Origin: Candidatus Anaerostipes avistercoris
Lineage (GTDB): Bacteria; Bacillota; Clostridia; Lachnospirales; Lachnospiraceae
Assembly (NCBI GenBank): GCA_019119895.1
Contig: DWWD01000020.1
Span: 62,001 to 126,000, forward strand
Reading direction: 5' to 3'
Length of the DNA stretch: 64,000 bases
Shown here: one piece after another, positions 7,073 to 38,127 of the stretch
How positions within the stretch are numbered: the stretch's first letter is position 1
How the letters are laid out: each line of letters starts with the position of its first letter
The notes under the pieces: generated by a model
Databases searched by the model: none
Told to the model about the DNA's origin: nothing
Seen by the model: only the letters and a program-made list of their open reading frames with translations
Translations under genes and position numbers: made by a program

Positions 7073-7084
7073 GAAATTCAGGAG

Positions 7085-7123: not shown

Positions 7124-7142
7124 GGAAGAATCGTGATATACT
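7114..7142 (+). promoter_or_regulatory. Promoter of the queuosine operon
   Basis: TTGCTA at 7114-7119, 17-base spacer, extended -10 TGATATACT ending at 7142. The -35 box overlaps the end of the preceding terminator. The start point would fall just before the riboswitch. Confidence 0.6.
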
Positions 7143-7160
7143 TGACTGGATTCCTTGAAT

Positions 7161-7204: not shown

Positions 7205-7249
7205 CCTGAGAACAGAGAGAGTCTCTGTTTGAATGCATGAGAATGTTAA

Positions 7250-7282
7250 GGGTACAGGTACATGAATCTGTGCCCTTTTTTT
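7250..7282 (+). terminator. Riboswitch expression-platform terminator
   Basis: GGGTACAG (7250-7257) pairs with CTGTGCCC (7268-7275, one G-U pair) and is followed by seven T. A second hairpin, ACAGAGA/TCTCTGT at ~7212-7228, lies between it and the aptamer and could be an alternative fold. Confidence 0.75.
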
Positions 7283-7333
7283 CATAGGGAACTTCTCCTT
7301 GTTCGATTAATAATATAGCAGAAAGGAAAGAAA

Positions 7334-7753: not shown

Positions 7754-7754
7754 G

Positions 7755-8423: not shown

Positions 8424-8432
8424 GAGGAAATT

Positions 8433-9020: not shown

Positions 9021-9032
9021 GAGGAGAGACAG

Positions 9033-9692: not shown

Positions 9693-9729
9693 AGATTTGT
9701 TAAAATCTCATAAAATGCAGAAGAATGGC

Positions 9730-9757
9730 TTGATAAATATTAGTTAAAATGTATAAT
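9730..9757 (+). promoter_or_regulatory. Promoter of the alcohol dehydrogenase gene
   Basis: TTGATA at 9730-9735 and TATAAT at 9752-9757, 16 bases apart. Confidence 0.65.
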
Positions 9758-9838
9758 AGAAGTGTAGGCGTCAACGGAATGGCCAGAGAAAGATGTTAGA
9801 CAGAACGGTTCATTCCACAACATAAAGGAGAAGTTGTT

Positions 9839-11014: not shown

Positions 11015-11040
11015 AAAATCAGATATAAATGAAAATCCGG

Positions 11041-11083
11041 AGATGATGGTTAACAATGCATTAACCATCATCTCTCTTTTTAT
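11041..11083 (+). terminator. Intrinsic terminator
   Basis: GAGATGATGGTTAA pairs with TTAACCATCATCTC around a 7-base loop, followed by TCTTTTTAT. Confidence 0.85.
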
Positions 11084-11137
11084 CTAAAATTTGCAGGAAA
11101 TAAAATGACCGGAAGGGATGAATTGTTTCCGCAAATC

Positions 11138-11146
11138 TGGTACAAT
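11138..11146 (+). promoter_or_regulatory. Extended -10 promoter of the dipeptidase gene
   Basis: TGGTACAAT at 11138-11146 is an extended -10 box; no good -35 match is seen at the right distance. Confidence 0.45.
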
Positions 11147-11212
11147 AGAGAGCAGTAGAAATGATATGAAACTTTCATATCAAATAAAAATAGTAGAAGG
11201 GAAGAGTTTACA

Positions 11213-12673
11213 ATGGAATACAAGATTACAGGATATCAGCCGGAAAAATTGTTCCATTTCTTTGAGGAAATCAGCGCAATTCCGAGGGGATCAGGAAATG
11301 AAAAAGGAATTAGTGATTACCTCGTATCCTTTGCCAGAGAAAGAGGCCTGTGGGTACATCAGGATGAAGCATTCAATGTAATCATCAAAAAGGAAGGCAG
11401 CGAGGGAGCAAAAGATCTTCCTGCTGTGATGCTTCAGGGACATATCGATATGGTATGTGAGAAAATTGCGGGAGTCGACCATGATTTTACAAAGGACGGC
11501 CTGGAACTGGTTGTTAAAGATGGCGTTCTGACAGCTAATGGAACGACGCTGGGCGCAGACAACGGAGTGGCGGCTGCCCTGATGCTCATGGTACTGGATG
11601 ATGAAGATATCAAACATCCTCCGGTGGAATGTGTATTTACAACAGAAGAAGAAGTGGGACTAAACGGGGCGAAAGCTCTTGACAAATCTCTGATCTCAGC
11701 CCGTCTCATGATCAATATGGATTCTGAGGAAGAGGGAATTGCAACGGTAAGCTGTGCGGGGGGACTCCGCATTGAATGCAGCAGAAAAATTATCCGGGAA
11801 GCGGCGGAAGGAACACTGGTTAAAATTGCCATATCCGGTCTCAAGGGCGGTCATTCCGGCACAGATATTGATCTGGAGCGGAAAAATGCCAATCTCGTAA
11901 TGGCAAGAGTGGTATATCAGCTGATGAAACATACAGACGGAAAACTGGTAACTTTTGCCGGAGGAACCAAGGATAACGCTATTCCAAGAGAATGCGAGGC
12001 GTCTCTGGTTTATGCTGATCCGGAAGAAGCGAGGAAAGCAGAAGAAATGGCTGAAAATCTTGCGGGAATCCTGGCAGATGAGATTACCCCGCATGAAGAA
12101 GGATTTATATGCGAGGTAACAACAGAAGAAGAACAGAAAGTAAAGGCTGTGTCTGCAGAAGACGCCAAAGCGTATGTAACAGCAATTTATCTTGCGCCAA
12201 ACGGCGTTCAGAGCCGCAATATCAAAATGGACCGGTTTGTGGTGAATTCTGCGAATCTTGGCGTAGTACGTGCGGATGAAGGTCAGCTGATTCTTGTATT
12301 TTCACCGCGATCTTCTGTAGCGTCCCTTCAGGACGAACTGAAGGCAAGGATCGGGCTTCTGGCAGATACCTTCGGATTTACCACAGAATACAGCGGAGAA
12401 TATCCGGGATGGAATTTCCGGGAAGAATCCCGCATCCGTGAAGTATTTAAAGAAAGCTACAGAGAATTGTTCGGCGAAGAACTGCAGACAGAAGCTCTTC
12501 ATGCAGGACTGGAGTGCGGTTTGTTCTGCGACGCGATTCCTGGACTGGACGCTATTGCTGTCGGTCCGCAGCTGTATCATGTCCATACGCCGGAAGAGAA
12601 TCTTCCGTTGGATTCTTTTGAAAGATTTTATAAATTATTAAAAGATGTATTAAGAAGACTGGCAGAAAAATAA
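11213..12673 (+). CDS. pepD: Aminoacyl-histidine dipeptidase (M20 family, PepD-like)
   Basis: Cytosolic dinuclear-metal dipeptidase of the M20C group (Xaa-His / carnosine-type). Metal-site stretches are in order MLQGHIDMVCE, TLGADNGVAAAL and TTEEEVGLNGAKAL with the general base Glu, and a late His in QLYHVHTPEENL. The 486 residues match PepD. Residues ~215-390 form the inserted dimerisation lid typical of the family (ISGLKGGHSGTDI begins it). Likely monocistronic, ended by the terminator at 12713. Confidence 0.9.
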   Translation: MEYKITGYQPEKLFHFFEEISAIPRGSGNEKGISDYLVSFARERGLWVHQDEAFNVIIKKEGSEGAKDLPAVMLQGHIDMVCEKIAGVDHDFTKDGLELVVKDGVLTANGTTLGADNGVAAALMLMVLDDEDIKHPPVECVFTTEEEVGLNGAKALDKSLISARLMINMDSEEEGIATVSCAGGLRIECSRKIIREAAEGTLVKIAISGLKGGHSGTDIDLERKNANLVMARVVYQLMKHTDGKLVTFAGGTKDNAIPRECEASLVYADPEEARKAEEMAENLAGILADEITPHEEGFICEVTTEEEQKVKAVSAEDAKAYVTAIYLAPNGVQSRNIKMDRFVVNSANLGVVRADEGQLILVFSPRSSVASLQDELKARIGLLADTFGFTTEYSGEYPGWNFREESRIREVFKESYRELFGEELQTEALHAGLECGLFCDAIPGLDAIAVGPQLYHVHTPEENLPLDSFERFYKLLKDVLRRLAEK

Positions 12674-12712
12674 GACCGGACGGGTCTGATCCAGAATAAA
12701 GTGTCAACAGAA

Positions 12713-12764
12713 AAAACCGGATGGATTCGCAGCTGATGCTGCGGGTTCATCCGGTTTTCTATTA
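12713..12764. terminator. Bidirectional terminator between convergent genes
   Basis: AAAACCGGATG and CATCCGGTTTT pair around an inner GCAGC/GCTGC hairpin; A-rich and T-rich flanks serve both strands. It separates pepD from the minus-strand OPT operon. Confidence 0.8.
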
Positions 12765-13118
12765 TTTTCTATATCGGTAGAGAATCTTTCCATTTTTTCT
12801 TTCTTCCGTAATCATCTTCTGTTTCAGCATATACGGAAGAATAGAATTCAGAAATTCTCTGGGATTTGTAACCGCCAGCTGTTTGCTTTGAAACGGCTGT
12901 TTCGCGGTTAGATCTTTTACCACGGGTTCCAGTTCTCTGCGGGTCATAGGACCGTTTTTTCGCAGAGTCTTTCGGATTTTTGCAATTCCTTTCGAGCTGA
13001 GCATATTGGATAAATCCTGTTTCTGGCGCATGGTCCGCCACAGTCCCCATCCGTAGATCAGGGCAGTAGCGGCTGCAAACAGGAGTACATATGGAATATA
13101 ATGAAGTATCAGCTGCAT
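12762..13118 (-). CDS. Membrane-anchored winged-helix-like protein of unknown function
   Basis: A 118-residue protein I cannot assign to a named family. Residues ~3-26 form one membrane helix (IPYVLLFAAATALIYGW). The remainder is basic and helical, with a pattern like a winged helix: IRKTLRKNGPMTRRELEPVV, then a strand-rich end KMITEERKNGKILYRYRK. It overlaps the PqqD-like gene upstream by 10 bases and is the last gene of the OPT operon, so it is probably co-translated with it. It may link the transporter to DNA, RNA or a cytosolic partner; that is inference. Confidence 0.7.
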   Translation of the reverse strand: MQLILHYIPYVLLFAAATALIYGWGLWRTMRQKQDLSNMLSSKGIAKIRKTLRKNGPMTRRELEPVVKDLTAKQPFQSKQLAVTNPREFLNSILPYMLKQKMITEERKNGKILYRYRK

Positions 13119-13462
13119 GTTTCTCCTTTCCAGTGAATCATATGATTATCATGAAGGATTTCCAGAAATTTGATCAGCCGGGAAAGGGATTTCTCCATAT
13201 CCGGGTATTCGGCTTCCAGTTTTTTTGATAATTGATGCACATCGCTGGAATCGTCAATAGAAAGCCAGACAAAACTTCCGTAACCGTCCAGTTTGATGTC
13301 GCTGACTCGAGGGCGGTGGAAAAATTTCTGGGCGATCCGATGGTAAAACCCTGTCCACTCCACAAAGAGTGTGACGATCCCATTTTCATCGGTCTGATAT
13401 TCAATATCCGGGTTCCTAACCGGTACAAAATCCAGATAATTCCGTTGGTTTTTTGCTTTCAT
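13109..13462 (-). CDS. PqqD-family (RRE-like) protein
   Basis: 117-residue protein with the PqqD fold, the small winged helix that delivers a peptide to a modifying radical SAM enzyme. Evidence: N-terminal strand NYLDFVPVRNP, the central KLDGYGSFVWLSIDDSSDVHQLSKKL (here cited by its ends KLDGYGSFVW and HQLSKKL), and a helix before the end KFLEILHDNHMI, as in family members. It starts 3 bases after the OPT transporter stop. No radical SAM maturase or precursor peptide is next to it, so its partner may be the transporter or a distant enzyme. Confidence 0.75.
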   Translation of the reverse strand: MKAKNQRNYLDFVPVRNPDIEYQTDENGIVTLFVEWTGFYHRIAQKFFHRPRVSDIKLDGYGSFVWLSIDDSSDVHQLSKKLEAEYPDMEKSLSRLIKFLEILHDNHMIHWKGETCS

Positions 13463-13465
13463 TTC

Positions 13466-15343
13466 TTATTTTTCCTTCTTCATGCACAGGGCATATAATC
13501 CTGCCAGCAGTACGATAAAGATGATCAGACTGCCAATCTGAGGCAGTGAGAACGGAAGGGTGATTACAGTATCTAATTTAGCCACGGCAATGACAGCCAG
13601 CACGATACCCATAATACCTTCTCCGGCGATCAGTCCGGATGTAAAGAGAACGCCGCGGTCGGTACGTTCTTTCTTTTCTTTCTCTGTACCTTTGACATGT
13701 TCTACGATAAAACGTACGATTCCGCCGGCCATGATTCCAGCACTTAAGCTGAACGGCAGATACATTCCGACAGCAAACGGCATAACCGGTACTTTCAGAA
13801 TTTCAATAACGATTGCAATAAAGACACCGGTAAAAATCAGAGCCCATGGAAGCTGAGCATTCATGATACCTTCTACCAGCATTTTCATCATAGTTGCCTG
13901 AGCGGCAGGAATCTGTTCTGTTCCGTATCCCCATGCTTCATTCAGCAGATAAAGAACGAAGCCGATGGCTGCTGCAGAGACAAGGACACCGATCATTTCA
14001 CCGATCTGCTGCTTTTTAGGTGTAGCACCTACAATAAATCCTGTTTTCAGGTCCTGGGAAGTATCACCGGCAATTGCCGCAACGATACAGATGATACCGC
14101 CGATGGCAATAGCTCCTACCATACCGGTTGTTCCTGTAGTTCCTGTAGCTTTCAGTACCAGTGTGGCAATGATCAGTGTTGCGATCGCCATACCGGATAC
14201 CGGGTTATTGGAAGATCCGATAAGACCAACCATACGGGAAGAAACAGACGCAAAGAAAAAGCCGAAAATAACGACGATCAGTGCGCCGATCGGATTAACC
14301 GGGAAGGTAGGGATCAGCCAGATTGCCACTGCGATCACAACAATAATACCGATCAGAAGCGGCATCGGGAGATCCTGCTGGGTACGAGGCGCGTTTTTGT
14401 CAGTATGCTTTTTAGACATACTGGACATAGCCTGCTTAAAGGTCCGGATGATCAGAGGAAATGTTTTGATCAGACTGATCATACCACCTGCGGCTACGGC
14501 GCCGGCGCCGATATATTTAATATAGTTATTCCAGATATCGCTTGGAGCCATGGAAGAAATAGGATCAGTTCCAGGGAAGACGACAGCGTCTCCACCAAAC
14601 AGTGCGATCAGAGGCATCAGCACGAACCAGCTTAATGTACCTCCCGCCAGCATATAACTGGAAATTTTTGGCCCGCAGATATAACCGACACCTGCAAGAG
14701 ACGGAAGTACCTGGATTCCGATCTGGGAACCGGCGTAACTCTTGAAGGCATATCCTATTTCGCTTGGGAATAAATGCAGTCCGTCTGCCACAAATTTATA
14801 AACAGCGGCAATACCGAGTCCTGCAAATACGGTTCCGGCTTTGGAACCTCCTTCTTCTCCGGCAAGAAGCACTTCGGCATAGGCTGTTCCCTCCGGGAAC
14901 GGCAGGGTTCCGTGTTCTTCCACAATCAGTGCCTGACGGAGCGGAACCATGAAGCATACACCGAGGATACCGCCGAACAGGGCAATCAGGAAGATGGTCA
15001 TAATGCTTGGGAATGCAATTTTTCCTTCTTCTGCCCATAAAAACAGAGCCGGAAGAGTAAAAATTGCTCCTGCGGCAACAGATTCACCGGCAGAACCGAT
15101 GGTCTGTACCAGGTTGTTCTCAAGAATGGAATCTCTCCGCAGGATGACACGAATGATTCCCATAGAAATAACGGCCGCAGGGATAGAAGCGGAAATCGTC
15201 ATTCCAACGAGAAGTCCAAGATACGCATTGGCAGCGCCAAATACAATAGCAAGAAGGATACCAATCAAGAGAGAAGTGACAGTAAATTCCGGTACGATTT
15301 TATCCGCCGGAATGTACGGTTTGAATTCTGACTTGTTGTCCAT
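13466..15343 (-). CDS. OPT-family oligopeptide transporter
   Basis: Proton-coupled peptide or metal-chelate transporter of the OPT superfamily. The 625 residues carry about 14 membrane helices with Gly-rich stretches, for example FGAANAYLGLLVGMTISASIP split over residues ~35-55 and GGTLSWFVLMPLIALFGG near 235. AAAGGA lies before the start. First gene of a three-gene operon with a PqqD-like and a winged-helix membrane protein, an association suggesting a peptide substrate. Substrate unknown. Confidence 0.88.
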   Translation of the reverse strand: MDNKSEFKPYIPADKIVPEFTVTSLLIGILLAIVFGAANAYLGLLVGMTISASIPAAVISMGIIRVILRRDSILENNLVQTIGSAGESVAAGAIFTLPALFLWAEEGKIAFPSIMTIFLIALFGGILGVCFMVPLRQALIVEEHGTLPFPEGTAYAEVLLAGEEGGSKAGTVFAGLGIAAVYKFVADGLHLFPSEIGYAFKSYAGSQIGIQVLPSLAGVGYICGPKISSYMLAGGTLSWFVLMPLIALFGGDAVVFPGTDPISSMAPSDIWNNYIKYIGAGAVAAGGMISLIKTFPLIIRTFKQAMSSMSKKHTDKNAPRTQQDLPMPLLIGIIVVIAVAIWLIPTFPVNPIGALIVVIFGFFFASVSSRMVGLIGSSNNPVSGMAIATLIIATLVLKATGTTGTTGMVGAIAIGGIICIVAAIAGDTSQDLKTGFIVGATPKKQQIGEMIGVLVSAAAIGFVLYLLNEAWGYGTEQIPAAQATMMKMLVEGIMNAQLPWALIFTGVFIAIVIEILKVPVMPFAVGMYLPFSLSAGIMAGGIVRFIVEHVKGTEKEKKERTDRGVLFTSGLIAGEGIMGIVLAVIAVAKLDTVITLPFSLPQIGSLIIFIVLLAGLYALCMKKEK

Positions 15344-27243: not shown

Positions 27244-28107
27244 TTACTTATTTTCATGGATGTAATCCAAAAGACCCTGCAGCCCGGAGGATACAAAAGA
27301 CGGAGAATACAGCAGCTGTGCGGTTTCGGAGAATTCCGGAGGCATTGGAAAGAATTCAAGATTTTCATAGTCTGCCATGAAAAGAGACGGCAGGAAGGCA
27401 AAACCTCTGGACAAATTCAGCATGAGGAGCTGCTGGGAAATTGTTTTTACGAGCAAAACATCGGAAAAGGTCGTGCCGTAAAGTTCTTTCAACTGTGTGC
27501 GGCAGAATTCCTGGTAGGTCTCTTCAGAAGCTTTTGTGATGATCGGCTGGCTGGCAACGACACCCTGGAGAGAGTTATAGTTTTCCAATAATTCTTTGGA
27601 GTAGACCAGAGATTCTTCAAAGGTAATCAGATCGACTCGTTCCATTTCATCCAGACCATATTGTTCTAATGTAAGAATATTTGGGCAGATCAGAGCATCC
27701 AGCCGGTGCTGGCGAAGATCGGCGAGGAGCTTTTCTTCTTCCGCAAAAGAAAAGTATACAGAAATATCGGGATATGCCTGTTCGAATGCCCGCAGAACAG
27801 GAAAGTTCTCATAATCAGTCGTGATCATGCCGATTCTCAGTTCCAGATTGTCCATGCGCTGGAGTTCCTGGCATAGTTCCTGATATCTTTCGGCAATCTT
27901 GCGCATTTCTTCATAGAACAGCTGCCCCTGACGGGTTAAAGATACACTTTTGCCGGAGCGGATGAAAAATTTACAGCCCAGTTCCTGTTCCAGCACTGCA
28001 ATGTACTTGCTCATAGTCGTCTGGGCGATATGACATCGCTCTGCCGCTTTTGTGAAATTCTTTAACTCTGCCGCCTGAAAAAAGTAATGAAGCTTATTAA
28101 TATCCAT
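27244..28107 (-). CDS. LysR-family transcriptional regulator
   Basis: 287-residue regulator. N-terminal helix-turn-helix FTKAAERCHIAQTTMSKYI and the linker helix are clear, followed by a ligand-binding domain (LRIGMITTDYENFPVL onward). Two starts are possible: ATG 28107 (MDINKLHYFF), typical of the family and 12 bases from GGAGG, or ATG 28119 directly abutting it. I prefer 28107. It precedes the MATE exporter on the same strand, so it may regulate export of a toxic compound; inference. Confidence 0.85.
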   Translation of the reverse strand: MDINKLHYFFQAAELKNFTKAAERCHIAQTTMSKYIAVLEQELGCKFFIRSGKSVSLTRQGQLFYEEMRKIAERYQELCQELQRMDNLELRIGMITTDYENFPVLRAFEQAYPDISVYFSFAEEEKLLADLRQHRLDALICPNILTLEQYGLDEMERVDLITFEESLVYSKELLENYNSLQGVVASQPIITKASEETYQEFCRTQLKELYGTTFSDVLLVKTISQQLLMLNLSRGFAFLPSLFMADYENLEFFPMPPEFSETAQLLYSPSFVSSGLQGLLDYIHENK

Positions 28108-28181
28108 ATCTGAAAACATCCTCCGTAAATTTCTTTGTTTTCATCATACCATAGGAAAGAATGCAAAAAAATTGGTGAATC

Positions 28182-28208
28182 AAAAAAACCTGCGTGTTCC
28201 GCAGGTTT
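28182..28208 (-). terminator. Terminator after tRNA-Leu
   Basis: On the minus strand AAACCTGC and GCAGGTTT pair around a 7-base loop, followed by a T run. Confidence 0.8.
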
Positions 28209-28214
28209 AAAAAG

Positions 28215-28298
28215 TGCCGATGGTGGGACTCGAACCCACACGTCCATAAGAACAACAGATTTTGAGTCTGTCTCGTCTGCCAGTTCCGACACATCGGC
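28215..28298 (-). tRNA. tRNA-Leu (anticodon CAA)
   Basis: The minus strand folds into a class II tRNA: acceptor GCCGATG/CATCGGC, anticodon stem ACAGA/TCTGT with loop CTCAAAA (anticodon CAA, reads UUG), a long variable arm as expected for Leu, and T arm GTGGG/CCCAC with loop TTCGAGT. The discriminator base is A. CCA is not encoded and must be added. Confidence 0.95.
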
Positions 28299-28323
28299 AT
28301 ATTCAATTTTCTTGACCTCGACT

Positions 28324-28352
28324 ATAATATCATTAAATCCTATGTATGTCAA
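28324..28352 (-). promoter_or_regulatory. Promoter of tRNA-Leu
   Basis: On the minus strand a perfect TTGACA (28347-28352) and TATTAT (28324-28329) with 17 bases between, ~25 bases ahead of the tRNA. Confidence 0.75.
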
Positions 28353-28459
28353 TAAAAAGTTGGAAACTTTTCAGGAGGCCTTTTTGCAGGGGGAAAGCCT
28401 TAAATAGAGGCCTTTTACGCCATAATTCAGCCTGTTATTATAATTTCTATGGGTGTATG

Positions 28460-28468
28460 TGCTATAAT
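28460..28468 (+). promoter_or_regulatory. Extended -10 promoter of the kinase cluster
   Basis: TGCTATAAT at 28460-28468; a second TATAAT lies at 28477-28482. No strong -35 is seen. Confidence 0.5.
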
Positions 28469-28506
28469 GATTAAGATATAATGAAAACCGGGGAGGAAAT
28501 CAGAGT

Positions 28507-29961
28507 ATGAAGAAAAAAGATGATCTGTTTGAAGAAATGGTAACGAACCTTACGTTAAACTTTATGGATGAGGATTTTGATATTGAAAATGAAGACATTC
28601 CGCTGCCGGGGAGGCTTGCGGTGCTGGCAGAGGGCTTTGCAAGGAATCTGACATTGGAAGAAGTAAATGAACGCCTGGAAGATGAAGGGTATGAGACCTT
28701 ATATGCCCGCAGTTTTTATGAGGCGGGGCTGATTTATGCTTTCAGTCATCAGCTGGATTATAACAGATGGATGGAATTGTACCAGAAATACATGGAAAAA
28801 TATATGGAACAGGCAAAAAGCAAAAAACAGAGTTTTCCGAAGGGGAAGATCACGCTTAAAAATCTGGAAAAATATGTGAAAGAAAACTCTTCTGAGCAGC
28901 TGGAAACGGAGATGCTGACCAGCTTTATGGAACAGGAAATTATCGAAAGTCAGTCAGAAGAAGATTTTTTCCATTTTATGGATCAAAATGTGGAAAATTT
29001 CTCGGCTGTCCGGGAAAAGGCGAGATATTATTTCTGCAAATATCTGTACCTGTATATTCGGCAGAAAATAGAAAACTATTACGAAAGCTGTGAGAAATCA
29101 GAAGCGCTGCTCCGGCAGTACGGCAGCGCCCTGGAAAAAGAAGAAAGAGGATATCTGGAGCTGCATGCCCTGGAGGAATTGAACTTCCTGAAGCCGCTGA
29201 CAGCCTTGAAAAAGGATGCGGCTAAGAGCCGGAACCGCATGTTGCTGGAAGAGAAAAAAGAGCTTGTGGAAAATACAGCGATTACGCCCGGCGGCGTTTT
29301 TGATGAATTCAATTATTTCTATTTCGGATATGTCTCTGTGGACTGGATGGAGCTGATTTTTGAATTGTATGGTTCCGTTGAGGACTGGCCGGATAATCTG
29401 AAGCTGAGGATTGCCCATGCTCTGGGATACTGCTCTGCCCATCCGGAAGCCGGAGAAGAACAAAGGGCGCTGAAACGGCTGAAACAATGGGAACGGGAAG
29501 AGCTGGAAAAAGAAGAAGAAAAAGACCGTGAATACGAAAGAGATGAGAAAAAGGCAGCGAAACTCTATCAGAGAGGAAGATCCGGCGAGGACTTCTTCCG
29601 TGATTTCATGACCGGAAAGAGGGATATCAACCGCGAAACACTGATCAGTTTCCTTCTGTTTGTAAAAACAAAGATTACTATGGAAGATGACAATAAGATT
29701 ACGATGATGCGGATGAACCGTATTCTTTCCAACTGCGGATTTTCCCAGTTATCACCTGGAGCCGGATTTGACCGTTTTGTCATTGAGTTTTTAAGAAGTC
29801 AGGAGCCGTTTTCTGTGCTGGAGTCTCATGTGGACAAAAGGGTAGGAGAGGGTGAGAATTTCTATCTTTATAAGGTGTACAAGGGTGCGTACTGTCATCA
29901 GGATGAACTGGCAAAATATCTGAGAATCAGAAAAAAAGAGAATCTGGAAGAGGAAGACTGA
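28507..29961 (+). CDS. Unknown cytosolic helical protein opening the kinase cluster
   Basis: I do not recognise a family. 484 residues, no signal or membrane segment, very rich in Glu, Lys and Tyr. It reads as alternating helices: an acidic N terminus (DEDFDIENEDIPLPGR), long helical repeats around residues 70-260 (Tyr-rich KARYYFCKYLYLYIRQKIENY), a strongly charged coiled stretch near 335-360 (REELEKEEEKDREYERDEKKAA), and a compact C-terminal domain with NRETLISFLLFVKTK and CGFSQLSPGAGFDRFVIEFL. It lies 21 bases before the first kinase and shares its promoter, so it may be a substrate, scaffold or output of the kinases. GGGGAGG precedes the start. Confidence 0.75.
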   Translation: MKKKDDLFEEMVTNLTLNFMDEDFDIENEDIPLPGRLAVLAEGFARNLTLEEVNERLEDEGYETLYARSFYEAGLIYAFSHQLDYNRWMELYQKYMEKYMEQAKSKKQSFPKGKITLKNLEKYVKENSSEQLETEMLTSFMEQEIIESQSEEDFFHFMDQNVENFSAVREKARYYFCKYLYLYIRQKIENYYESCEKSEALLRQYGSALEKEERGYLELHALEELNFLKPLTALKKDAAKSRNRMLLEEKKELVENTAITPGGVFDEFNYFYFGYVSVDWMELIFELYGSVEDWPDNLKLRIAHALGYCSAHPEAGEEQRALKRLKQWEREELEKEEEKDREYERDEKKAAKLYQRGRSGEDFFRDFMTGKRDINRETLISFLLFVKTKITMEDDNKITMMRMNRILSNCGFSQLSPGAGFDRFVIEFLRSQEPFSVLESHVDKRVGEGENFYLYKVYKGAYCHQDELAKYLRIRKKENLEEED

Positions 29962-29982
29962 AGCAGAAGGAAGAAAAGTTAG

Positions 29983-31746
29983 ATGGAGACAAAACGATGT
30001 ATTTTTTGTATGCAGGAAATTGATTCTACGGAAGAAAGATGTCCCCATTGTAAAAAAGCAGTGTGGGAATATGGCTGGAAACCCGGCTGGATCAGACCGT
30101 ATACTGTGCTGCAGGAAAGGTATATGATCGGGCAGGCACTGGGGGAAGGCGCCTTTGGAGTGACATATCTTGCATATGATGATAAAGAGAAAAAGTCTGT
30201 TGCCATAAAAGCGTATTTCCGGAAAGAAAATAAGTCATCTCAAGAGAAAAAAGAAGCGGATCTTCTGGATGAAATAAAAGATATTCCGGGAGTTGTAAAT
30301 AAGACGGGATATTTTCAGGAAGATGGAACTCATTATCTTGTGATGGAATACTTAAAAGGCGGCAGTTTCAGAGATTATCTGAAAAAGCGTCATCGCGTTC
30401 CGGCAGAAGAGGCAGTAAAGCTTCTGCAGCCGGTGATGCGGACACTGATCCGGCTTCACAGCAGAGGGATCATACATGGGGACATCAGCCCGGACAATCT
30501 GTTGTTTGATGATGAAGGAACATTGAAAATCATTGATTTTGGAGCGGCGCTGGTGAAAGGCTTTCCGGCAAGGGAAAAGAAACTGAAAGAAGGATATGCG
30601 CCGATGGAGTCCTATCAGGAAAAGGATAAAATCGGTCCATGGAGTGATTTATATGCGGTCTGTGCCGTATGGTATGAGGCGGTGACAGGGCATAAAGTGC
30701 CGACGGCTCCCCAGAGAGTGAGAAGGGATCACATAAGAATTCCCAGTGATTTTGTAAAAGTGCCGGATCAGATGGAGCAGGCATTTATGAGAGGTCTGTC
30801 GGTGGACATTCAGAGCCGGTATTTCAGTATTGTAAATCTGCTGCATCAGCTGGATCTGCAGGAGGAAAAAGACGATGGAAAAGAGAGCGAGGCTATCCGA
30901 AAGATCTGGGGAGATTCATGGATTCAGATCACGACTGAGGTGGAGAGGGTTTCTGCAAAGAACCGAAAACGAGGAAGATTTCGCAGCCGTCTGAAGAAGA
31001 TTCTCTGCGCATGTGCGGCCCTGATTCTTGTGGTTCTTCTGGCGAGGGCAGGAGTTCAATGGTATCGTACGACTCACCCGGAAAAAGTAGTCGAGGAAGA
31101 CCTGAAAAACGACCGGGAAGCGGCGGAAGAAATGGAGAAAACGGAAATCCGGGGACAGGACTCAAAAGAATTCAAAGAAGCAGTAGAATTCCTGGAGGAA
31201 AATGCTTATGAGGTGGATGATAGTGAAACTTCTACGACTTATCGTATTCTGAAGGGAGCATTAAAAGGATGGAAATATCCAAGTGAATCAGCGGGAGTAT
31301 TTCCAGTCAGAGTGTCTACAATGAAGAGAGTGATAGATTTGTATATAGATGAAGATTCAGAGAAAGAACAAAATGATTTTAATGGTTTTGTTACGGTAAA
31401 GAAAAATGATCAGTGGGATCCTTTCATAATTACATTAGAGCAGCAGGAGCAATGGAGTTATGATGAAAATAAAGTAGAGATTTCTTCGGATTATGTAACG
31501 AATTTTGTAACAAAACTAAGCTTTAATTCATCAGACCAGGAAGAAGTAAAGGCATTTGTATATAAAATGCTGCCAATTCTTTCACCGGAATCTTATCTGA
31601 CGGAAGAAGAAATTGAAGAGTTATTTGATTATTTAAAAGAGCAGGATGATCTTGTTATAATCGATCTTAATGCAAAGTGTCAGGTGAGTTTTTTTTATAA
31701 TTCCTATAACAGTACTTTTAGGGCGATGGCAGAGGTAAAACAATGA
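29983..31746 (+). CDS. Membrane Ser/Thr protein kinase 1, zinc-ribbon N terminus
   Basis: Hanks-type kinase, 587 residues. Order: zinc ribbon (Cys6, 9, 20, 23), kinase domain ~42-290, basic juxtamembrane stretch, one membrane helix ~339-355, external domain to the end. Catalytic residues are intact: glycine loop LGEGAFGVTY, Lys76 in VAIK, Asp167 in HGDISPDN, Asp185 in DFG. HGD in place of HRD marks a subclass that does not rely on the usual activation-loop arginine pairing. The external part ends SYLTEEEIEELFDYL and DLNAKCQVSFFYN, not a PASTA domain; family unknown. Overlaps the next kinase by ATGA, so they are coupled. Confidence 0.88.
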   Translation: METKRCIFCMQEIDSTEERCPHCKKAVWEYGWKPGWIRPYTVLQERYMIGQALGEGAFGVTYLAYDDKEKKSVAIKAYFRKENKSSQEKKEADLLDEIKDIPGVVNKTGYFQEDGTHYLVMEYLKGGSFRDYLKKRHRVPAEEAVKLLQPVMRTLIRLHSRGIIHGDISPDNLLFDDEGTLKIIDFGAALVKGFPAREKKLKEGYAPMESYQEKDKIGPWSDLYAVCAVWYEAVTGHKVPTAPQRVRRDHIRIPSDFVKVPDQMEQAFMRGLSVDIQSRYFSIVNLLHQLDLQEEKDDGKESEAIRKIWGDSWIQITTEVERVSAKNRKRGRFRSRLKKILCACAALILVVLLARAGVQWYRTTHPEKVVEEDLKNDREAAEEMEKTEIRGQDSKEFKEAVEFLEENAYEVDDSETSTTYRILKGALKGWKYPSESAGVFPVRVSTMKRVIDLYIDEDSEKEQNDFNGFVTVKKNDQWDPFIITLEQQEQWSYDENKVEISSDYVTNFVTKLSFNSSDQEEVKAFVYKMLPILSPESYLTEEEIEELFDYLKEQDDLVIIDLNAKCQVSFFYNSYNSTFRAMAEVKQ

Positions 31747-33431
31747 TGAAAGATAATTGTTTAAAAAATGGAACGGTTTTAAGGGGCAGATACAATATAA
31801 AAAAGGTTTTGGGAATTGGAGGGTTTGGAGTTACATACCTCGTGGAAGATAGAATTTTAGAACAGAAGGTTGTCATAAAGGAATATTTTCCTCAAGAGAT
31901 TGCGGGAAGAATGATTGAGAAAAATGGAGAAATGAAAGTTGTTCCCAGGGAGAAGAATGATTCCAGGCGTTTTCTGAAAGGGAAAAAAGATTTTCTGGAG
32001 GAAGCCAGACGAATGTCAAAATTGTTTGATATTCTGGAAATTGTCAAAATTTTAGATTGGTTCGAAGAAAATGGAACAGCATATCTGGCAATGGAGTATA
32101 TTCGGGGAATTAGTCTGGATGATTATCTGCAAAATCAGGATGTGCCATTTTCTTTTCAGCAGGCATGGGAAATGCTGAAACCTGTGGCAGAGGCTCTCGA
32201 AAAAATTCATAAAATGGGAATTATCCATCGTGATTTAAATCCCGGGAATCTGATGATAGAAGAGAACGGAACGATTAAAATCATAGATTTTGGTTCAGCA
32301 AGACCGTATCTGGAGACAGAAAAAACCATGACGATTTTGATCAAGAAAGGATATGCACCACCGGAACAATATGTAAAAAAAGGGAAACAGGGCCCATGGA
32401 CAGACATTTATGCCTTTTGCGCTACGATTTATGAAATGATAACTGGTGTGCGCCCGGAACCTTCCATTCAGAGGATCGAAAAAGATGAGTTGTATCCTCC
32501 TTCAGCCTATGGTGCAGAAATTCTGCCAGAGGAAGAGAAAATACTATGCAGAGGATTGGAATTAAACTATAAGCACCGTTTTCGAAAGATGTCAGATTTA
32601 TGTGATTGTTTGAAAAATGCCGGTCAGCCTATAGAGGCAGAAGTTAAAGAAATAAAAAAACCACAATGGATTCTTCCGTTGACACTTGTTGGTATTGCTA
32701 TGGCAGTATGCGCAGCAGGAGCAGGCTTTTTCTTTTCAGATACAGAAGAGCCGCAAAAGCAGACTTATGCCGGAAATTATGGACGACAAAGCGACCGCTA
32801 TGAGGAATATATAGAATTTGTAAAACATCATGCAGTGTCCAGAGAAAAAAGTGAAAAAGATGAACTGTATGAATCCTATCCTTATCGAGGACTAAGTACA
32901 ATCTATACTTTGAAGTCAGAAGATGTAAAAGAGTGGGGAGAACCCTGCAATCGTTTTCGCTTCGACATGAAGGGCGATGATTATATAAAATGGATGAAGA
33001 AAAAAGGTTATTTGTTGGAGAAAAAGGGACAAAATGAGAAGAATACAGTAGAAATTGAGAAATATGGAGCCATAAGAACGTATTTCAGAAAAGAAAAAGA
33101 ATATGTGACAAAAAATAACGTACATGTCAGCGTGGTAAGCGATACAGTAAATGATGATTTATTTGGAATTTATTTTGTGACGCCAGAAGGAACGGAAGAA
33201 GAAGGGAAAAATGTGATTCAGGAAACAGCAGAATTCCTGATACAGGATTTCCCGTCAAATGAAAAAGGGAGAGAAGTTTTAGAGAACTTATATGAGGAGA
33301 TGCCGAGAAACAGCCAAATTGATCCCGGATTTAATTTTTTGTTAAAACAGACAGAAAAAGAGGAATCTTCAACCTGGGATTTTACGGTTGATCATTGGAA
33401 CTATGGCCTCAAAACCTATTTATGGGAGTAA
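31743..33431 (+). CDS. Membrane Ser/Thr protein kinase 2
   Basis: 562-residue Hanks-type kinase without a zinc ribbon. Kinase domain ~14-290 has LGIGGFGVTY, Lys46 in VVIK, full HRDLNPGN (Asp164) and DFG (Asp182), so it should be active. KGYAPPEQY is the activation-segment APE region. One membrane helix ~309-332, then an external domain beginning TYAGNYGRQSDRYEEYIEFV that differs from that of kinase 1. Its start overlaps the kinase 1 stop. External part family unknown; presumably the sensor. Confidence 0.88.
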   Translation: MMKDNCLKNGTVLRGRYNIKKVLGIGGFGVTYLVEDRILEQKVVIKEYFPQEIAGRMIEKNGEMKVVPREKNDSRRFLKGKKDFLEEARRMSKLFDILEIVKILDWFEENGTAYLAMEYIRGISLDDYLQNQDVPFSFQQAWEMLKPVAEALEKIHKMGIIHRDLNPGNLMIEENGTIKIIDFGSARPYLETEKTMTILIKKGYAPPEQYVKKGKQGPWTDIYAFCATIYEMITGVRPEPSIQRIEKDELYPPSAYGAEILPEEEKILCRGLELNYKHRFRKMSDLCDCLKNAGQPIEAEVKEIKKPQWILPLTLVGIAMAVCAAGAGFFFSDTEEPQKQTYAGNYGRQSDRYEEYIEFVKHHAVSREKSEKDELYESYPYRGLSTIYTLKSEDVKEWGEPCNRFRFDMKGDDYIKWMKKKGYLLEKKGQNEKNTVEIEKYGAIRTYFRKEKEYVTKNNVHVSVVSDTVNDDLFGIYFVTPEGTEEEGKNVIQETAEFLIQDFPSNEKGREVLENLYEEMPRNSQIDPGFNFLLKQTEKEESSTWDFTVDHWNYGLKTYLWE

Positions 33432-33449
33432 GTGAATGAGGATAAAGAG

Positions 33450-35921
33450 ATGAAAAAGAGTAAATGTATTTTTTGCATGAATGAAAAAGAGGAATCAGAG
33501 CAAATTTGTCCGGTTTGCAAAAAGGGATTGTGGGAATATGAATGGCGGGAAGGCTTTCTGGAGCCATATGTTGTGCTTCGCAGTAAATATATGATAGGAG
33601 CGGCTTTGGAACAGGATGGACATACTGTGCGGTATGCAGGATATGATCTTGTGCTGGAACAAAAAGTACTGGTATATGAATATCCGGAAGAGTTTTGGAG
33701 GGCAGAAAAAGAGCAGAAAGTAAAGGGTGTGTTCGGGAAAATTTTGTCTTCCGGTATGGCGGTAATCAAGGATTACTTTTTGGAAAATGGAAAGGGATAT
33801 ATGATTACAACATTCCCGGAAGGAGAGGGCCTTGAAAACTATATAAAGAAAAGACACAAAATAGAGGAAGAGGAAGTAATACGTTTACTTCGCCCGGTTC
33901 TGCGGGCGGTAAGCGGACTTCACGCTGCCGGACAGATTCATGGGAATATTACGCCAGATCATTTGATGGTAATGAAAGATGGGACGCTTCGGTTATTGGC
34001 AGACTGTAAAGGCAGAGTGTCTGAAGGAAATACGGATGAGTATAAAGCGCCGGAGCAGCAGGATAGTGAAGGAATTCTGGGACCATGGACTGATGTGTAT
34101 GCGCTTTGTGCAGTATGGTATGAAATGGTTACAGGACACAAAATTCAAGCAGCATCTGACCGAATGAAAAATGACAGTGTAAGAAGTCCGCATTGGTATA
34201 CAAAAATCCGAGATAAAACAGAACGGGCATTAATGCAGGGAATATCTCTGGAATCTCAGATGAGGTTCTTTTCTATTGGAAATTTGCTGGAAAGTATAGA
34301 TCTTCCGAGAGAAGAGGAGGAGCGGGAAATGGGAGTAATCCGCCATATCTGGGGAGATGCCTGGCTGAATACTTCGCAGCAGGAGAAGAAAAGGAAAAGG
34401 AAAAAACGAGTAAAAGGGTATCTTTTGAAGAGAATAGCAATCGGTATGATTTGTCTGGCCGCTTTGGCGGGAATGTCGTCAGTTGGTATTTATGTATATA
34501 TTCAGACGCATCAGCCGGATTATTTTGCCTGGAAAGTAGAGCGTGAACAGAAAAAAATAAAAAATGAACAAAACGAAAAGGTTTTTGATAAAAAAGATTT
34601 GGAATATGCAGAAATAAGAGAGTATCTTTTGCAATACGGAGAAGAAAAGAAATACGACGGCTATTCTGAATATGAAGTAAAGGAGAAAGACTGGGATAAA
34701 TGTCCGATTGATCAGGGAGGTGAAAATACTTTCTGTATTGATTTTGAAACTGCGAAAAATGCGGTAGAATATTATATGGGGATAGATCAAAAACTGGATT
34801 TGGCAGATGAGGCAGGAAGCATGCTGGGATATGTAGAAGATGATGAGAAAGGGAGAATTCGATTGTCTTCGGGTAAAGATGAAACCTATAAGGTTCGGGG
34901 TAAAACAGAGACGGCCATTTTTACTTATGATCCCTTGAATGAACGACTTATGGGAATAGAGTATCAGGGTTCGAGAGAAAGGTGCATTCGTTTTCTGGAG
35001 AAGCTGTCCTCGCTGTTATTCACAGAAACATATTTGACAAAAGAAGAGTGTGTGGAATTAGGAAATCTTTCGATCCCGAGAGGAGAATCTGTTCGATTAA
35101 GACTCAATGCAAGATATCTTATTGATATTTCTTACCAGGATAATATTGCAAAGAATGAAGATTCGATTTATTCCATAAAGATACAGCCAATGTCTTCTGG
35201 TGAAGATCAATATTATTCTCTTTTTCAGGAAAATAAAAAAGATGATACAGTTTATGCGGGAAATTATAAACGAGGAAGTGAGAGGTATAAAGAATTTATT
35301 TCTTATGTGAAAGAACATGCGGTTTCCAAAGAGAAGGTGAAAGAGGATAAAGATTATCAAGACGAGAAGGAGGCTGTTCTTTATACATTGGACGAAAAAG
35401 ATGTCATACAATGGGGTGAGCCGTGCAATAATTATCGTTTTTTGGTTCAGGCAGAAGATGTGATTCGTGATTTGAAGAAAAAAGGATACCAAATGAAAAA
35501 AATCTCCGAAAAGAAAAGGAATACGGTGGAGATACAAAAATATGGGAGTATTTTAACTACTTTTAAGACAGTTGAGCATTATCAGATGACAGAAAATATT
35601 AATTTAGGTTTGGTCAAAGATAGCATTAATGACGATGTTATACAATTAGTGGTGTATCGAAGCAATGAAAGTGCCGCAGATTTGGATGATGCTGCTGTGG
35701 ATGCTGGAGTGTCAGCGGCTGACTTTCAGAAAAAAGATAGGGAAGATCTTAAAGAATTTGTTAGTAGTATGTGGAGAAGAGTAAAATCAGAAAAGACAGC
35801 AAATTTCTTGTTTAATGAGAATCTCGAGATCATCATACAGGAATATGAAAATACTGGAAATGCGTTTTTCATTGTTCCGCTGGAGTTTGCTGGGGATTCA
35901 CCTTACTACTGGCCTCAGTAA
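33450..35921 (+). CDS. Membrane pseudokinase carrying both ectodomain types
   Basis: 823 residues with the kinase 1 layout: zinc ribbon (Cys6, 9, 20, 23), kinase-like domain ~42-285, one helix ~328-351. Every catalytic position is changed: glycine loop LEQDGHTV, Tyr76 for the VAIK Lys, HGN (Asn166) for the catalytic Asp, His171 for the metal-binding Asn, and ADC for DFG. The fold core (GPWTDVYALCAVWYEMVTG) is kept, so it is a pseudokinase and not a decayed gene. External residues ~380-598 match kinase 1's ectodomain and ~600-740 match kinase 2's. I start at ATG 33450 (TGAGG 8 bases before), matching kinase 1's N terminus. It could scaffold or regulate the two kinases. Confidence 0.85.
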   Translation: MKKSKCIFCMNEKEESEQICPVCKKGLWEYEWREGFLEPYVVLRSKYMIGAALEQDGHTVRYAGYDLVLEQKVLVYEYPEEFWRAEKEQKVKGVFGKILSSGMAVIKDYFLENGKGYMITTFPEGEGLENYIKKRHKIEEEEVIRLLRPVLRAVSGLHAAGQIHGNITPDHLMVMKDGTLRLLADCKGRVSEGNTDEYKAPEQQDSEGILGPWTDVYALCAVWYEMVTGHKIQAASDRMKNDSVRSPHWYTKIRDKTERALMQGISLESQMRFFSIGNLLESIDLPREEEEREMGVIRHIWGDAWLNTSQQEKKRKRKKRVKGYLLKRIAIGMICLAALAGMSSVGIYVYIQTHQPDYFAWKVEREQKKIKNEQNEKVFDKKDLEYAEIREYLLQYGEEKKYDGYSEYEVKEKDWDKCPIDQGGENTFCIDFETAKNAVEYYMGIDQKLDLADEAGSMLGYVEDDEKGRIRLSSGKDETYKVRGKTETAIFTYDPLNERLMGIEYQGSRERCIRFLEKLSSLLFTETYLTKEECVELGNLSIPRGESVRLRLNARYLIDISYQDNIAKNEDSIYSIKIQPMSSGEDQYYSLFQENKKDDTVYAGNYKRGSERYKEFISYVKEHAVSKEKVKEDKDYQDEKEAVLYTLDEKDVIQWGEPCNNYRFLVQAEDVIRDLKKKGYQMKKISEKKRNTVEIQKYGSILTTFKTVEHYQMTENINLGLVKDSINDDVIQLVVYRSNESAADLDDAAVDAGVSAADFQKKDREDLKEFVSSMWRRVKSEKTANFLFNENLEIIIQEYENTGNAFFIVPLEFAGDSPYYWPQ

Positions 35922-35927
35922 CAAAAA

Positions 35928-36458
35928 TCAGGTTTCTATGAGTGTGGTGTTTTTGGGAGCATAATTGCTTTCCGGATTCTCATCGACACTGATCCATTTT
36001 CCTGCAAGATCATCGTAAGAAAAAGAACTTTCTTTGGCAGCCTGCTTACGTTCCAGTTCCTCTTTATACAGAGTTTCCAGGTTCTCCTTTTCAATGTCTG
36101 ACAGAGAAGCGCTGTCGTAGTCGTTGGAAGGATGATACCAGCTGATGGTTTCAAAATACTTTTTTGTTTTTTCTGAGCAGACCCGCTTGCCGTGTCTTGC
36201 AGTGATTTCACATCGTGCAATTCTTAATTCCTGATCCGATAATGCAGTCGCTTCTTCACTGGTGATCAGCCGGGTGTCGCTGTATGGAAGAAGCTCTATG
36301 TTCTTTTTTTCGACAGGAGCTGGAGCTTCTGTCTGCTTTGCTTCGGCCTTCTTGGGCGGAAAACGTTTCGTCCAATTAGATGAAAATGACCGGACGGCAG
36401 CAGCGGAAATGATCATAACAAAAACAGCCAGCATCAAAGCGGTGATTTTCTTTAACAT
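35928..36458 (-). CDS. Secreted or membrane-anchored YARHG-domain protein
   Basis: 176 residues. N-terminal hydrophobic segment (~6-27, LMLAVFVMIISAAAV) is a signal anchor without a lipobox Cys. A Pro/Lys/Glu-rich linker follows, then a YARHG domain (~75-140): the hallmark ITARHGKRV and the later YFETISWYHP are visible. YARHG domains sit in extracellular proteins of Clostridia, often next to kinases, and are thought to bind a ligand or the cell wall. AGGAGG precedes the start. It converges on the pseudokinase gene with 6 bases between the stops. Confidence 0.8.
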   Translation of the reverse strand: MLKKITALMLAVFVMIISAAAVRSFSSNWTKRFPPKKAEAKQTEAPAPVEKKNIELLPYSDTRLITSEEATALSDQELRIARCEITARHGKRVCSEKTKKYFETISWYHPSNDYDSASLSDIEKENLETLYKEELERKQAAKESSFSYDDLAGKWISVDENPESNYAPKNTTLIET

Positions 36459-36489
36459 GTCGGTTCCTCCTATCTTTTAATATGATGTT

Positions 36490-37281
36490 TTAAATCAGCG
36501 GGCGGTAAGAATCCAGTAATTGATCAATTTGTTCCTGGGAAGGATTTTTATAGGTTGGAGAAACATGGACATATTCGTAAGTTTCTGCAACTGGGCTCCA
36601 TGTCCAGTTAGAACCAATCTGTTTAAAAAAGTCATCGATATTATCATAAGTTTCTCCTAATGCATAAAACTGGGATGGTTTTTTGCCGGTCCATTTTTCG
36701 CCTTTAACCTTAATAAGAACAGTTGATTTCATTTGTCCGTTGGAAAATGTCATTTTGCTGGCATCGACTCCGCTATATTCGATTGATGATTTTCTGGAAG
36801 AATCTGTGTAAAAAGTATTTTGTTCAGTTTTGTAGTCATAGCACAGATTTTCAACCAGCCACGCGTATTCGCCATTGGAATTAACATAAAGTCCGGGAAA
36901 ATCTGCACTTTGGCCATCGTAAGAAAATTTTGTGTATTGTAAATTCTGACTGTCATCATAGTAAAAAATCACAGCGTTTCCGAGTAATCCGTTTGCACCG
37001 ATCTGGGTTACAATATGTAATTCAGGAATGCCGTCAAAATCAAGATCTTTTAATGTACATTCTGTACCATCTTCAATGGACATATAATCTTCTATATGAT
37101 GGAGAACATCCGCATACCCGGATTTCCAGTCAAATTCTTCGTTTTCTTCTTTATTTTCTCCTGGTATGAATGATTGAATTTGCTTTGTTTCATTTGATGA
37201 TTTCAGTATAAATCCTGTTTTGGAAAATTTGTTTTTTGATGAGAGAAAAACAAATTGGCTCGGTATGATCGTTAGAATCAT
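36490..37281 (-). CDS. Exported-type protein, probably 5'-truncated
   Basis: 263 residues, no family I can name. LKDLDFDGIPELHIV near residue 80 is a calcium-loop-like motif seen in secreted repeat proteins (FG-GAP/dockerin style), followed by strand-rich sequence (AVIFYYDDSQNLQYTKFSYD). The N terminus is odd: ATG 37281 has no ribosome-binding site, only a weak hydrophobic stretch replaces a signal peptide, and the start lies 20 bases from the divergent VWA gene. I think the original 5' end has been lost. It precedes the YARHG gene on the same strand and may be co-expressed with it. Confidence 0.6.
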   Translation of the reverse strand: MILTIIPSQFVFLSSKNKFSKTGFILKSSNETKQIQSFIPGENKEENEEFDWKSGYADVLHHIEDYMSIEDGTECTLKDLDFDGIPELHIVTQIGANGLLGNAVIFYYDDSQNLQYTKFSYDGQSADFPGLYVNSNGEYAWLVENLCYDYKTEQNTFYTDSSRKSSIEYSGVDASKMTFSNGQMKSTVLIKVKGEKWTGKKPSQFYALGETYDNIDDFFKQIGSNWTWSPVAETYEYVHVSPTYKNPSQEQIDQLLDSYRPLI

Positions 37282-37310
37282 CTTCAGAAAAGGAAAGGAG
37301 AGTGAGGAAG

Positions 37311-37877
37311 GTGAAGAATAACAGCATCAAAGAAATGATATGCATTCTTGATCAAAGCGGCTCCATGTATGGAAGGGAAGAGGATACGATCAGAAGTTAC
37401 AATGATATGCTGAAAGAACAAAAGCAGCAGGAGGGCGAGGCTTATATTACAACGGCCTTATTCAGCGACCAATGCCATATTCTTTACCGGCATATGCCGA
37501 TCCGGCAGGCAGAGGCTTTGACGCAGATGGAGTACCATGCTTATGGCAATACAGCATTATTTGACGCCATAGGAACGGTGTTTGAAGAAGTGGAACCGGA
37601 AAAAGATGAGAAGGTCCTTGTTTTCATTATGACAGACGGTATGGAGAATGCCAGTATACAATATGACCAGAAAAAGGTCCGGCATCTAATACAGGAAAAA
37701 CAAAGAAAAGGATGGGAAATTCTGTTTTTTGGAACGGAAATGCGGATTTTGGATCTGGCAGAAGAGACAGGAATTAAAAAAGAACATACCATGTATTATT
37801 CGAAAGACTTTGAGGGGATCCGGACAGGATACGAACTGGCAGGAAACAGATTTTCCGAAATACGAAAAGAAAAATAA
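37311..37877 (+). CDS. VWA-domain protein with intact metal site
   Basis: 188-residue cytosolic protein consisting of one von Willebrand A domain. The metal-ion site is complete: DQSGSM (Asp14, Ser16, Ser18), a Thr in GNTALFDAIG, and Asp in IMTDGMENAS. Such proteins bind partners through a divalent metal and are frequent beside bacterial Ser/Thr kinases. GTG 37311 is preferred (GGAG 10 bases upstream); GTG 37302 is too close to it. It is the only member of this island's right half that has a clear binding activity, so it may read out phosphorylation by the kinases; inference. Confidence 0.82.
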   Translation: MKNNSIKEMICILDQSGSMYGREEDTIRSYNDMLKEQKQQEGEAYITTALFSDQCHILYRHMPIRQAEALTQMEYHAYGNTALFDAIGTVFEEVEPEKDEKVLVFIMTDGMENASIQYDQKKVRHLIQEKQRKGWEILFFGTEMRILDLAEETGIKKEHTMYYSKDFEGIRTGYELAGNRFSEIRKEK

Positions 37878-37969
37878 GCAGGAAAAACAAATTTTCCAAA
37901 ACAGAATTTATACTGAGAATAGAAAGAAAACAACAACGGCACAGGCGAAACACAAAGGAGGAAATGAAG

Positions 37970-38127
37970 ATGAAAAAAAGATTGGGAATGGTTTTCATGG
38001 CGTTGGGAATGATGGCAGCGATGCTGACCGGCTGTCAGATGGGATCCATTGAAGGAACCTGGACGGCGGAGAATTAACACTGGCAGGCACTGATGGGGCA
38101 AGCGCTCTGGTATTCGAAAAAGAATAG
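37970..38127 (+). pseudogene. Frameshifted small lipoprotein
   Basis: A good ribosome-binding site (AAAGGAGG) precedes ATG 37970, which encodes a lipoprotein signal with lipobox LTGC (residues 19-22), then SIEGTWTAEN and a stop at 38077. The -1/+1 frame continues in register as GELTLAGTDGASALVFEKE and stops at 38127. Together they look like one small exported beta-rich domain (GTW...DGxLTLTGTDG) broken by a frameshift, perhaps with an internal deletion. Followed by a terminator at 38158. Confidence 0.6.

Follow-up and report, generated by a model that had tools for sequence, protein, structure and literature searches.

Sequence comparisons argue strongly that the third of three adjoining kinase-like genes in "Candidatus Anaerostipes avistercoris" (Lachnospiraceae) encodes a receptor-like pseudokinase with a noncatalytic role. 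This gene, K3, lies in the 64,000-nucleotide stretch of contig DWWD01000020.1 that was analyzed (here called the window). It stands head to tail on the plus strand with K1 and K2, which we regard as active kinases from their motifs; K0 is directly upstream of them (Table 1).

Catalytic site and domain organization of K3

The kinase domains of K1, K2, and K3 were aligned with each other and with those of related loci. K1 and K2 keep all four key residues and K3 keeps none: the VAIK lysine is replaced by Tyr76, the aspartate of HxD by Asn166 (giving HGN in place of the HGD of K1), the metal-binding asparagine by His171, and DFG by Ala184-Asp185-Cys186. The glycine loop, aligned to that of K1, is degenerate and reads EQDGHT. 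An earlier note on this DNA had listed the loss of these four residues and of most of the glycine loop, and the alignment bears out each of them. The activation segment is also shorter than in K1 or K2. Still present are most of APE and GPWxD, which we take to be the alpha-F aspartate motif. The ATP-binding, catalytic, and metal-binding motifs have all been lost, the pattern that marks bacterial Ser/Thr pseudokinases, and K3 is expected to lack kinase catalysis.

The fold itself appears to be kept, which carries no information on activity. K3 matches PF00069 in Pfam with 48.1 bits, above the cutoff of 31.7 (K1, 121.7; K2, 128.8), and AlphaFold2, given a 27-row alignment, predicts with high confidence (mean pLDDT 92.3, pTM 0.90) a kinase fold whose best matches in the PDB are the kinase domains of Mycobacterium tuberculosis PknB and PknA. 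Together with the four cysteines, one predicted helix, and a frame without internal stops over 829 or 823 codons, this agrees with the earlier description of a protein that retains fold, zinc ribbon, membrane helix, and a long reading frame. Its parts follow the order of a receptor kinase: kinase domain, one membrane helix predicted by hydropathy, and extracellular part. The basic flank of the predicted helix suggests that the kinase domain is cytoplasmic and the ectodomains (e1 and e2) outside. A DNA repeat (D12) coincides with the juxtamembrane segment. Of the two candidate start codons, the GTG comes immediately after the K2 stop and the ATG 18 bases further on; we take the ATG as the probable start because it is preceded by an AGGA stretch, and thereby keep the residue numbering of the earlier note.

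Table 1. Coordinates of K3, its parts and neighbors in the window, and of a second group of membrane pseudokinases
Feature	Sequence	Position	Strand	Remarks
K3, predicted transmembrane pseudokinase	window	33450..35921	+	823 aa from ATG 33450; 829 aa from GTG 33432
K3 zinc ribbon	window	33450..33569	+	residues 1-40; Cys 6/9/20/23
K3 pseudokinase domain	window	33570..34319	+	residues about 41-290; Pfam, alignment, AlphaFold2
K3 motif sites	window	Y76 at 33675; N166 at 33945; H171 at 33960; ADC at 33999-34007	+	
K3 juxtamembrane segment	window	34320..34418	+	R-x-x-WG-x-x-W motif common to K1; basic directly before membrane helix
K3 predicted membrane helix	window	34419..34499	+	about residues 324-350; hydropathy scan
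K3 ectodomain e1, K1-type	window	34536..35225	+	
K3 ectodomain e2, K2-type	window	35226..35918	+	homologous to e1
K1, zinc-ribbon transmembrane Ser/Thr kinase	window	29983..31746	+	motifs intact
K2, transmembrane Ser/Thr kinase	window	31743..33431	+	motifs intact; 4-bp overlap with K1; stop abuts K3 GTG
K0, 484-aa protein	window	28507..29961	+	no family found
VWA-domain protein	window	37302..37877	+	
YARHG-domain protein	window	35928..36458	-	hydrophobic N terminus; shorter than relatives
Second group, pseudokinase and ATPase	L144	8574-9830 and 5466-7940	-	
Second group, pseudokinase and ATPase	L145	7996-9354 and 10007-12514	+	
Second group, pseudokinase and ATPase	L146	6869-8215 and 3668-6184	-	

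K3 orthologs are rare and uniformly degenerate

Five orthologs are known, counting that of the window. A search of 145 genomes (its own included) returned one at full length, from Anaerostipes butyraticus JCM 17466 (G005; 57% identity); the others are from the metagenome-assembled genome of "Candidatus Blautia intestinipullorum" (47%) and from two species of a single genus, g377 (G393 and G461; 35 to 36%). A search of contigs with the single K3 sequence gave no match, and one with a two-row alignment gave six loci, two of them K3 orthologs. Sampling of the family (397 genomes) and of the order (392 genomes, overlapping with the former) detected full-length K3 in two genomes each; both searches scored the best two candidates per genome. 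Within the genus Anaerostipes it was present in 2 of 11 genomes, and within the genus of G393 and G461 in two of three, the third genome being 83% complete.

All five orthologs are degenerate. Replacement of the catalytic aspartate by asparagine (Asn166) is invariant, and the beta-3, catalytic, and metal-binding positions read Tyr/Asn/His in three orthologs and Arg/Asn/Thr in two; G393 and G461 carry the arginine and have no activation-loop insertion. Three have ADC in place of DFG, and the other two have lost the motif. The column of the alpha-C glutamate holds lysine in K3 and A. butyraticus, aspartate in Blautia, and glutamate in the G393 ortholog. Cysteines 6, 9, 20, and 23 of the zinc ribbon are invariant, and the reading frame is open throughout. 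Orthologs with intact catalytic residues, which the earlier note had named as the sign of recent decay, were found neither in the 145-genome set nor in the family, genus, second-genus, or order samples or the contigs. Recent decay of a single strain's gene is ruled out, since the orthologs are degenerate as well.

The residue losses in K3 are also more than chance. From 143 loci, 152 kinase-like open reading frames yielded 117 distinct kinase domains, 100 of which keep the Lys/Asp/Asn/Asp set; the loci were picked by similarity to this one, and the counts are not population frequencies. Nine domains lack both the beta-3 lysine and the catalytic aspartate, namely, the five K3 orthologs and four others (L028, L031, L123, and L073). 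Truncation affects at least one of the four sites in five more, and three lack the metal-binding asparagine only.

Selection on the pseudokinase domain

Ratios of dN/dS (Nei-Gojobori) were calculated between the window and A. butyraticus, the sole close pair with usable values. The zinc ribbon and kinase domain of K3 gave 0.141 (81% identity) and the K2 kinase domain 0.124 (84%); the K3 kinase domain is thus under purifying selection in this one close pair. With all five orthologs being pseudokinases and the ratio near that of K2, the proposal of the earlier note that selection maintains a noncatalytic role is well supported. Values were 0.381 for K3 e1, 0.437 for K3 e2, 0.214 for the K2 ectodomain, and 0.190 for the VWA gene, so that the ectodomains are the fastest-evolving parts of K3. 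For scale, GltD gave 0.028 and a permease 0.052; both K3 and K2 are therefore less constrained than housekeeping genes. Beyond the close pair dS is saturated, and wider comparisons of this kind were not relied on. At that distance the K3 kinase region is 43% identical to that of G393 and the K2 kinase region 62%, and across the five loci 95 of 308 columns are invariant in K3 versus 153 of 292 in K2.

With Blautia as the outgroup, changes in the K3 kinase region were assigned to the window branch (18) or the A. butyraticus branch (12), with 28 unassigned. The region is not accelerated in A. butyraticus, which has no K1. Ectodomain e1 shows 25 changes on the window branch and 28 on the A. butyraticus branch, and e2 shows 17 and 42, so that something in e2 did change in the lineage without K0 and K1.

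A composite extracellular part and its likely origin

Phylogenies placed K3 in one clade (100/99) within a K1+K3 group (100/99), with K2 in a separate clade (100/98). The joint of K3 with K1 of the window type is weak (89/72 in one tree, 80/53 in another), and the species branch in the same order in K3 and K2. Over 583 aligned columns, K3 and K1 share 31% identity. Within the extracellular part of K3, e1 matches the ectodomain of K1 and e2 that of K2, residues 578 to 797 (GTG numbering) being 33% identical to the latter region. The two are themselves homologous by profile (hhalign probability 97.4, E 9e-12, in one comparison), and in an AlphaFold2 model (pLDDT 83.5) they share the order of secondary-structure elements; from the profile match and this order they are probably one domain type. 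A Foldseek search with the K3 ectodomain against the PDB gave no match at E 0.001 or better. In the e1 tree the K3 rows group together (96/93); in the e2 tree, where 2 of 10 inner branches are well supported, the K3 rows form no supported clade.

K3 thus reads as a composite, a kinase and first ectodomain of K1 type followed by a second ectodomain of K2 type, a feature that the earlier note had missed. One genome without K3 (G036) encodes, in a row, K1, a separate 267-aa e2 protein with a hydrophobic N terminus, and K2, an arrangement that looks like, and is likely, the unfused state. Another (G304) has K0, K1, and K2 without K3. A history can be inferred in which K1 was duplicated, e2 was fused to the copy, catalysis was lost, and the cassette then spread or was inherited. 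The tree does not favor a common origin of K3 and the f11 family of pseudokinases, nor does it reject one (AU test, P = 0.061).

Candidate partners and neighboring genes

K2 is present at all five loci, and K3 is directly 3' of it at each. The genome of A. butyraticus, listed as 100% complete, contains K2 and K3, no match to K0, and no K1, the best match to K1 being K3 itself. K1 is therefore not an obligate partner of K3, and K2 is the likelier one.

K0 was detected in 7 of 397 family genomes, which with G461 makes eight loci. It is kinase-linked, since at all eight it either adjoins a kinase gene or is separated from one by a single gene; K3, for its part, is not dependent on K0. Pfam, NCBIfam, and PHROGs gave no match to K0 worth naming, and the PDB contained no sequence relative. 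K0 shares 72% identity with its relative in G393 (dN/dS of 0.07, the dS being almost saturated) and may serve as a dedicated substrate or adaptor.

The VWA gene lies beside K3 at four of the five loci (window, A. butyraticus, Blautia, and G461); at the fifth, in G393, the contig stops before this position. In the window it is flanked by 34-bp inverted repeats (97% identity; 37203-37236 and 37883-37916), and in A. butyraticus a like repeat (L039, 1662-1690 and 2881-2909) flanks it together with a 155-aa open reading frame; the segment is possibly a mobile or invertible unit. TerY-P-like systems combine vWA, PP2C, and kinase proteins. Such a system was rejected here: the VWA gene is there, but Pfam found no PP2C among seven scanned locus proteins. 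Anti-phage defense was likewise rejected, as the PADLOC and NCBIfam matches (mad6, PD-T4-6, and MAD6) look like generic kinase-domain matches, and those of NCBIfam score far under their cutoffs.

Two further genes look altered in this genome. The YARHG protein has 176 aa versus 295 aa in A. butyraticus, and the gene at 36490-37281 on the minus strand has an N terminus unlike that of its A. butyraticus relative (305 aa, 96% identical over 222). The G+C content of the cassette (28001-38000) is 38 to 42%, versus 42.5 to 47.4% elsewhere in the window. Given this low G+C content and the presence of K3 in so few genomes of the genus, the cassette was possibly acquired horizontally.

Comparison with known kinases and pseudokinases

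The PASTA kinases PknB, StkP, and IreK have an N-terminal cytoplasmic kinase domain, one membrane helix, and an ectodomain. K3 resembles them in architecture and in the match of its model to the PknB and PknA kinase domains; it differs in having no PASTA match in Pfam, no expected catalysis, and an ectodomain without a PDB match.

A 2025 review lists seven families of bacterial pseudokinases, several with a membrane helix, in addition to EssB/YukC, MviN, SidJ, and SelO, and describes their functions as mostly unknown (PMC12599244). MviN (ActPs3) of Mycobacterium, a substrate of the kinase PknB, is like K3 a membrane protein whose cytoplasmic pseudokinase domain has lost all catalytic motifs; unlike K3 it is a peptidoglycan-synthesis membrane protein (PMC12599244). 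No kinase is among the genes that the review names in the MviN operon, one of which is unannotated. K3 is not of this family: Pfam gave no MviN match at E 0.1, and the MviN motifs (VALT, LSIDHPSR, no DFG; Table 1 of PMC12599244) differ. The zinc ribbon and the two ectodomains of K3 are further differences. EssB/YukC of type VII secretion is, like K3, a transmembrane pseudokinase of Firmicutes with a degraded glycine loop and a short activation loop (PMC12599244), whereas K3 is related to an adjoining kinase with intact motifs. K3 is not an EssB/YukC protein, as neither it nor six other scanned locus proteins matched a type VII secretion family (Pfam and NCBIfam, E 0.1). ActPs2 combines a beta-3 arginine, an HRD aspartate changed to asparagine, and a long activation-loop insertion; K3 shares the asparagine but has tyrosine at beta-3 and a short loop. 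The DYD family has a beta-3 arginine and a DYD motif where K3 has Tyr76 and ADC. K3 belongs to neither of these two families.

The earlier suggestion that bacterial transmembrane pseudokinases in one operon with active partners are rarely described is right in part. Membrane pseudokinases as such are known and include MviN, EssB/YukC, and others (PMC12599244). The limited set of literature searched showed no membrane pseudokinase in an operon with active paralogs, and the operons described in PMC12599244, in which some genes are unannotated, name no active kinase paralog. A limited search for pseudokinases and Lachnospiraceae returned, judged by title, one paper on bacterial kinases, dealing with spore kinases (PMC2860764).

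Other pseudokinases were met during the searches. A second membrane group, in another family of the order, has 418 to 452 aa, aspartate in place of the beta-3 lysine, HGN, and threonine at the metal-binding asparagine; in three of three genomes it lies about 0.65 kb upstream of a gene for a P-type cation-transporting ATPase on the same strand. At L147 (9017-9865, plus strand), a pseudokinase of 282 aa, for which no membrane helix is predicted, belongs to a cluster (2-14150) with five kinase genes, their motifs intact where covered, and a PP2C phosphatase gene.

A model for K3 function and its alternatives

The reading that we favor, with belief and doubt about evenly balanced, is that K3 is a noncatalytic co-receptor that assembles with K2, and with K1 where present, and sets its activity; the binding and the direction of control are what we infer. 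The ectodomains would let K3 join K2, and K1 when present, in the membrane. The pseudokinase domain would pack against an active kinase domain and set its activity allosterically, and the zinc ribbon and juxtamembrane motif would keep the cytoplasmic parts together. Activation is slightly more probable than inhibition. Gene order, the ectodomain type common to K3 and K2, and the presence of K2 at all five loci speak indirectly for such a partnership, and the control or scaffolding of adjoining kinases proposed in the earlier note is plausible. In HER3, a weak or dead receptor activates an active partner allosterically. The same is described for EFR and BAK1, where a catalytically weak or dead receptor activates its active partner (PMC11259431), and HER3 is named in a further paper (PMC13259870). 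We draw the comparison for how such a K3 pair might work, claiming no common descent of the receptor architecture. Against the co-receptor reading, the fast evolution of the K3 ectodomains would fit ligand binding as well as partner binding, and e2 has changed more in A. butyraticus than on the window branch. Full-length K3 is so rare in the family and the genus that such kinases must work without it elsewhere.

It is unlikely that K3 is an MviN-like phospho-docking scaffold, a substrate of K1 or K2 that recruits K0, the VWA protein, or another protein while kinase activity stays unchanged. MviN offers a precedent, being a membrane pseudokinase to which FhaA binds after phosphorylation by PknB (PMC12599244), and the nearness of K0 to kinase genes at eight of eight loci and of the VWA gene to K3 at four of five would suit such recruitment. 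Yet K3 is kept in A. butyraticus although K0 has no match there, domain scans found no phospho-binding domain in K0 or the VWA protein, and a cytoplasmic docking site needs no double ectodomain. That last feature would serve a decoy or dominant-negative receptor, which captures K1 and K2 ligands or forms unproductive pairs with these kinases and so damps the signal; K3 has both ectodomain types, is not expected to phosphorylate, and the same anatomy serves inhibition. Even so, this strikes us as quite improbable, as a pure decoy needs neither four invariant zinc-ribbon cysteines nor a kinase domain that in the close pair is about as well conserved as the K2 domain.

Repurposing of bacterial pseudokinases is documented (PMC12599244), and K3 might use ATP for a different reaction, as SelO does in AMPylation and SidJ in glutamylation. 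We think this very improbable: SidJ uses the ATP-binding lysine and the metal-binding aspartate and SelO keeps both (Table 1 of PMC12599244), whereas K3 has lost the lysine, catalytic aspartate, metal-binding asparagine, and DFG aspartate, and its glycine loop varies among orthologs. The shifted aspartate (D185) is still present in three of the five. We give scarcely any credence to the kinase domain being a decaying relic on a protein whose ectodomains alone matter. Its greater divergence than K2 at long distance (to G393) and the differing catalytic-site residues of the orthologs would fit decay, but a dN/dS of 0.14 in the kinase region versus 0.38 to 0.44 in the ectodomains is the reverse of what a relic would give, and the frame is open in all five.

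Implications

More tentatively than the co-receptor role itself, K3 may be a co-receptor made from one duplicated receptor kinase and the ectodomain type of a second, in which one dead subunit reads or bridges both active receptors; this would be a logic like that of HER3 and EFR, doubtful as yet, with a separate origin in gut bacteria of the Lachnospiraceae type. Here the dead kinase adjoins the kinases to which it is related, A. butyraticus, without K1, offers a natural experiment, and G036 shows the likely state before fusion. K3 itself probably works as an accessory component of a sensing complex and not as an enzyme. With this locus, the control of bacterial receptor kinases by pseudokinase partners becomes a directly testable question.
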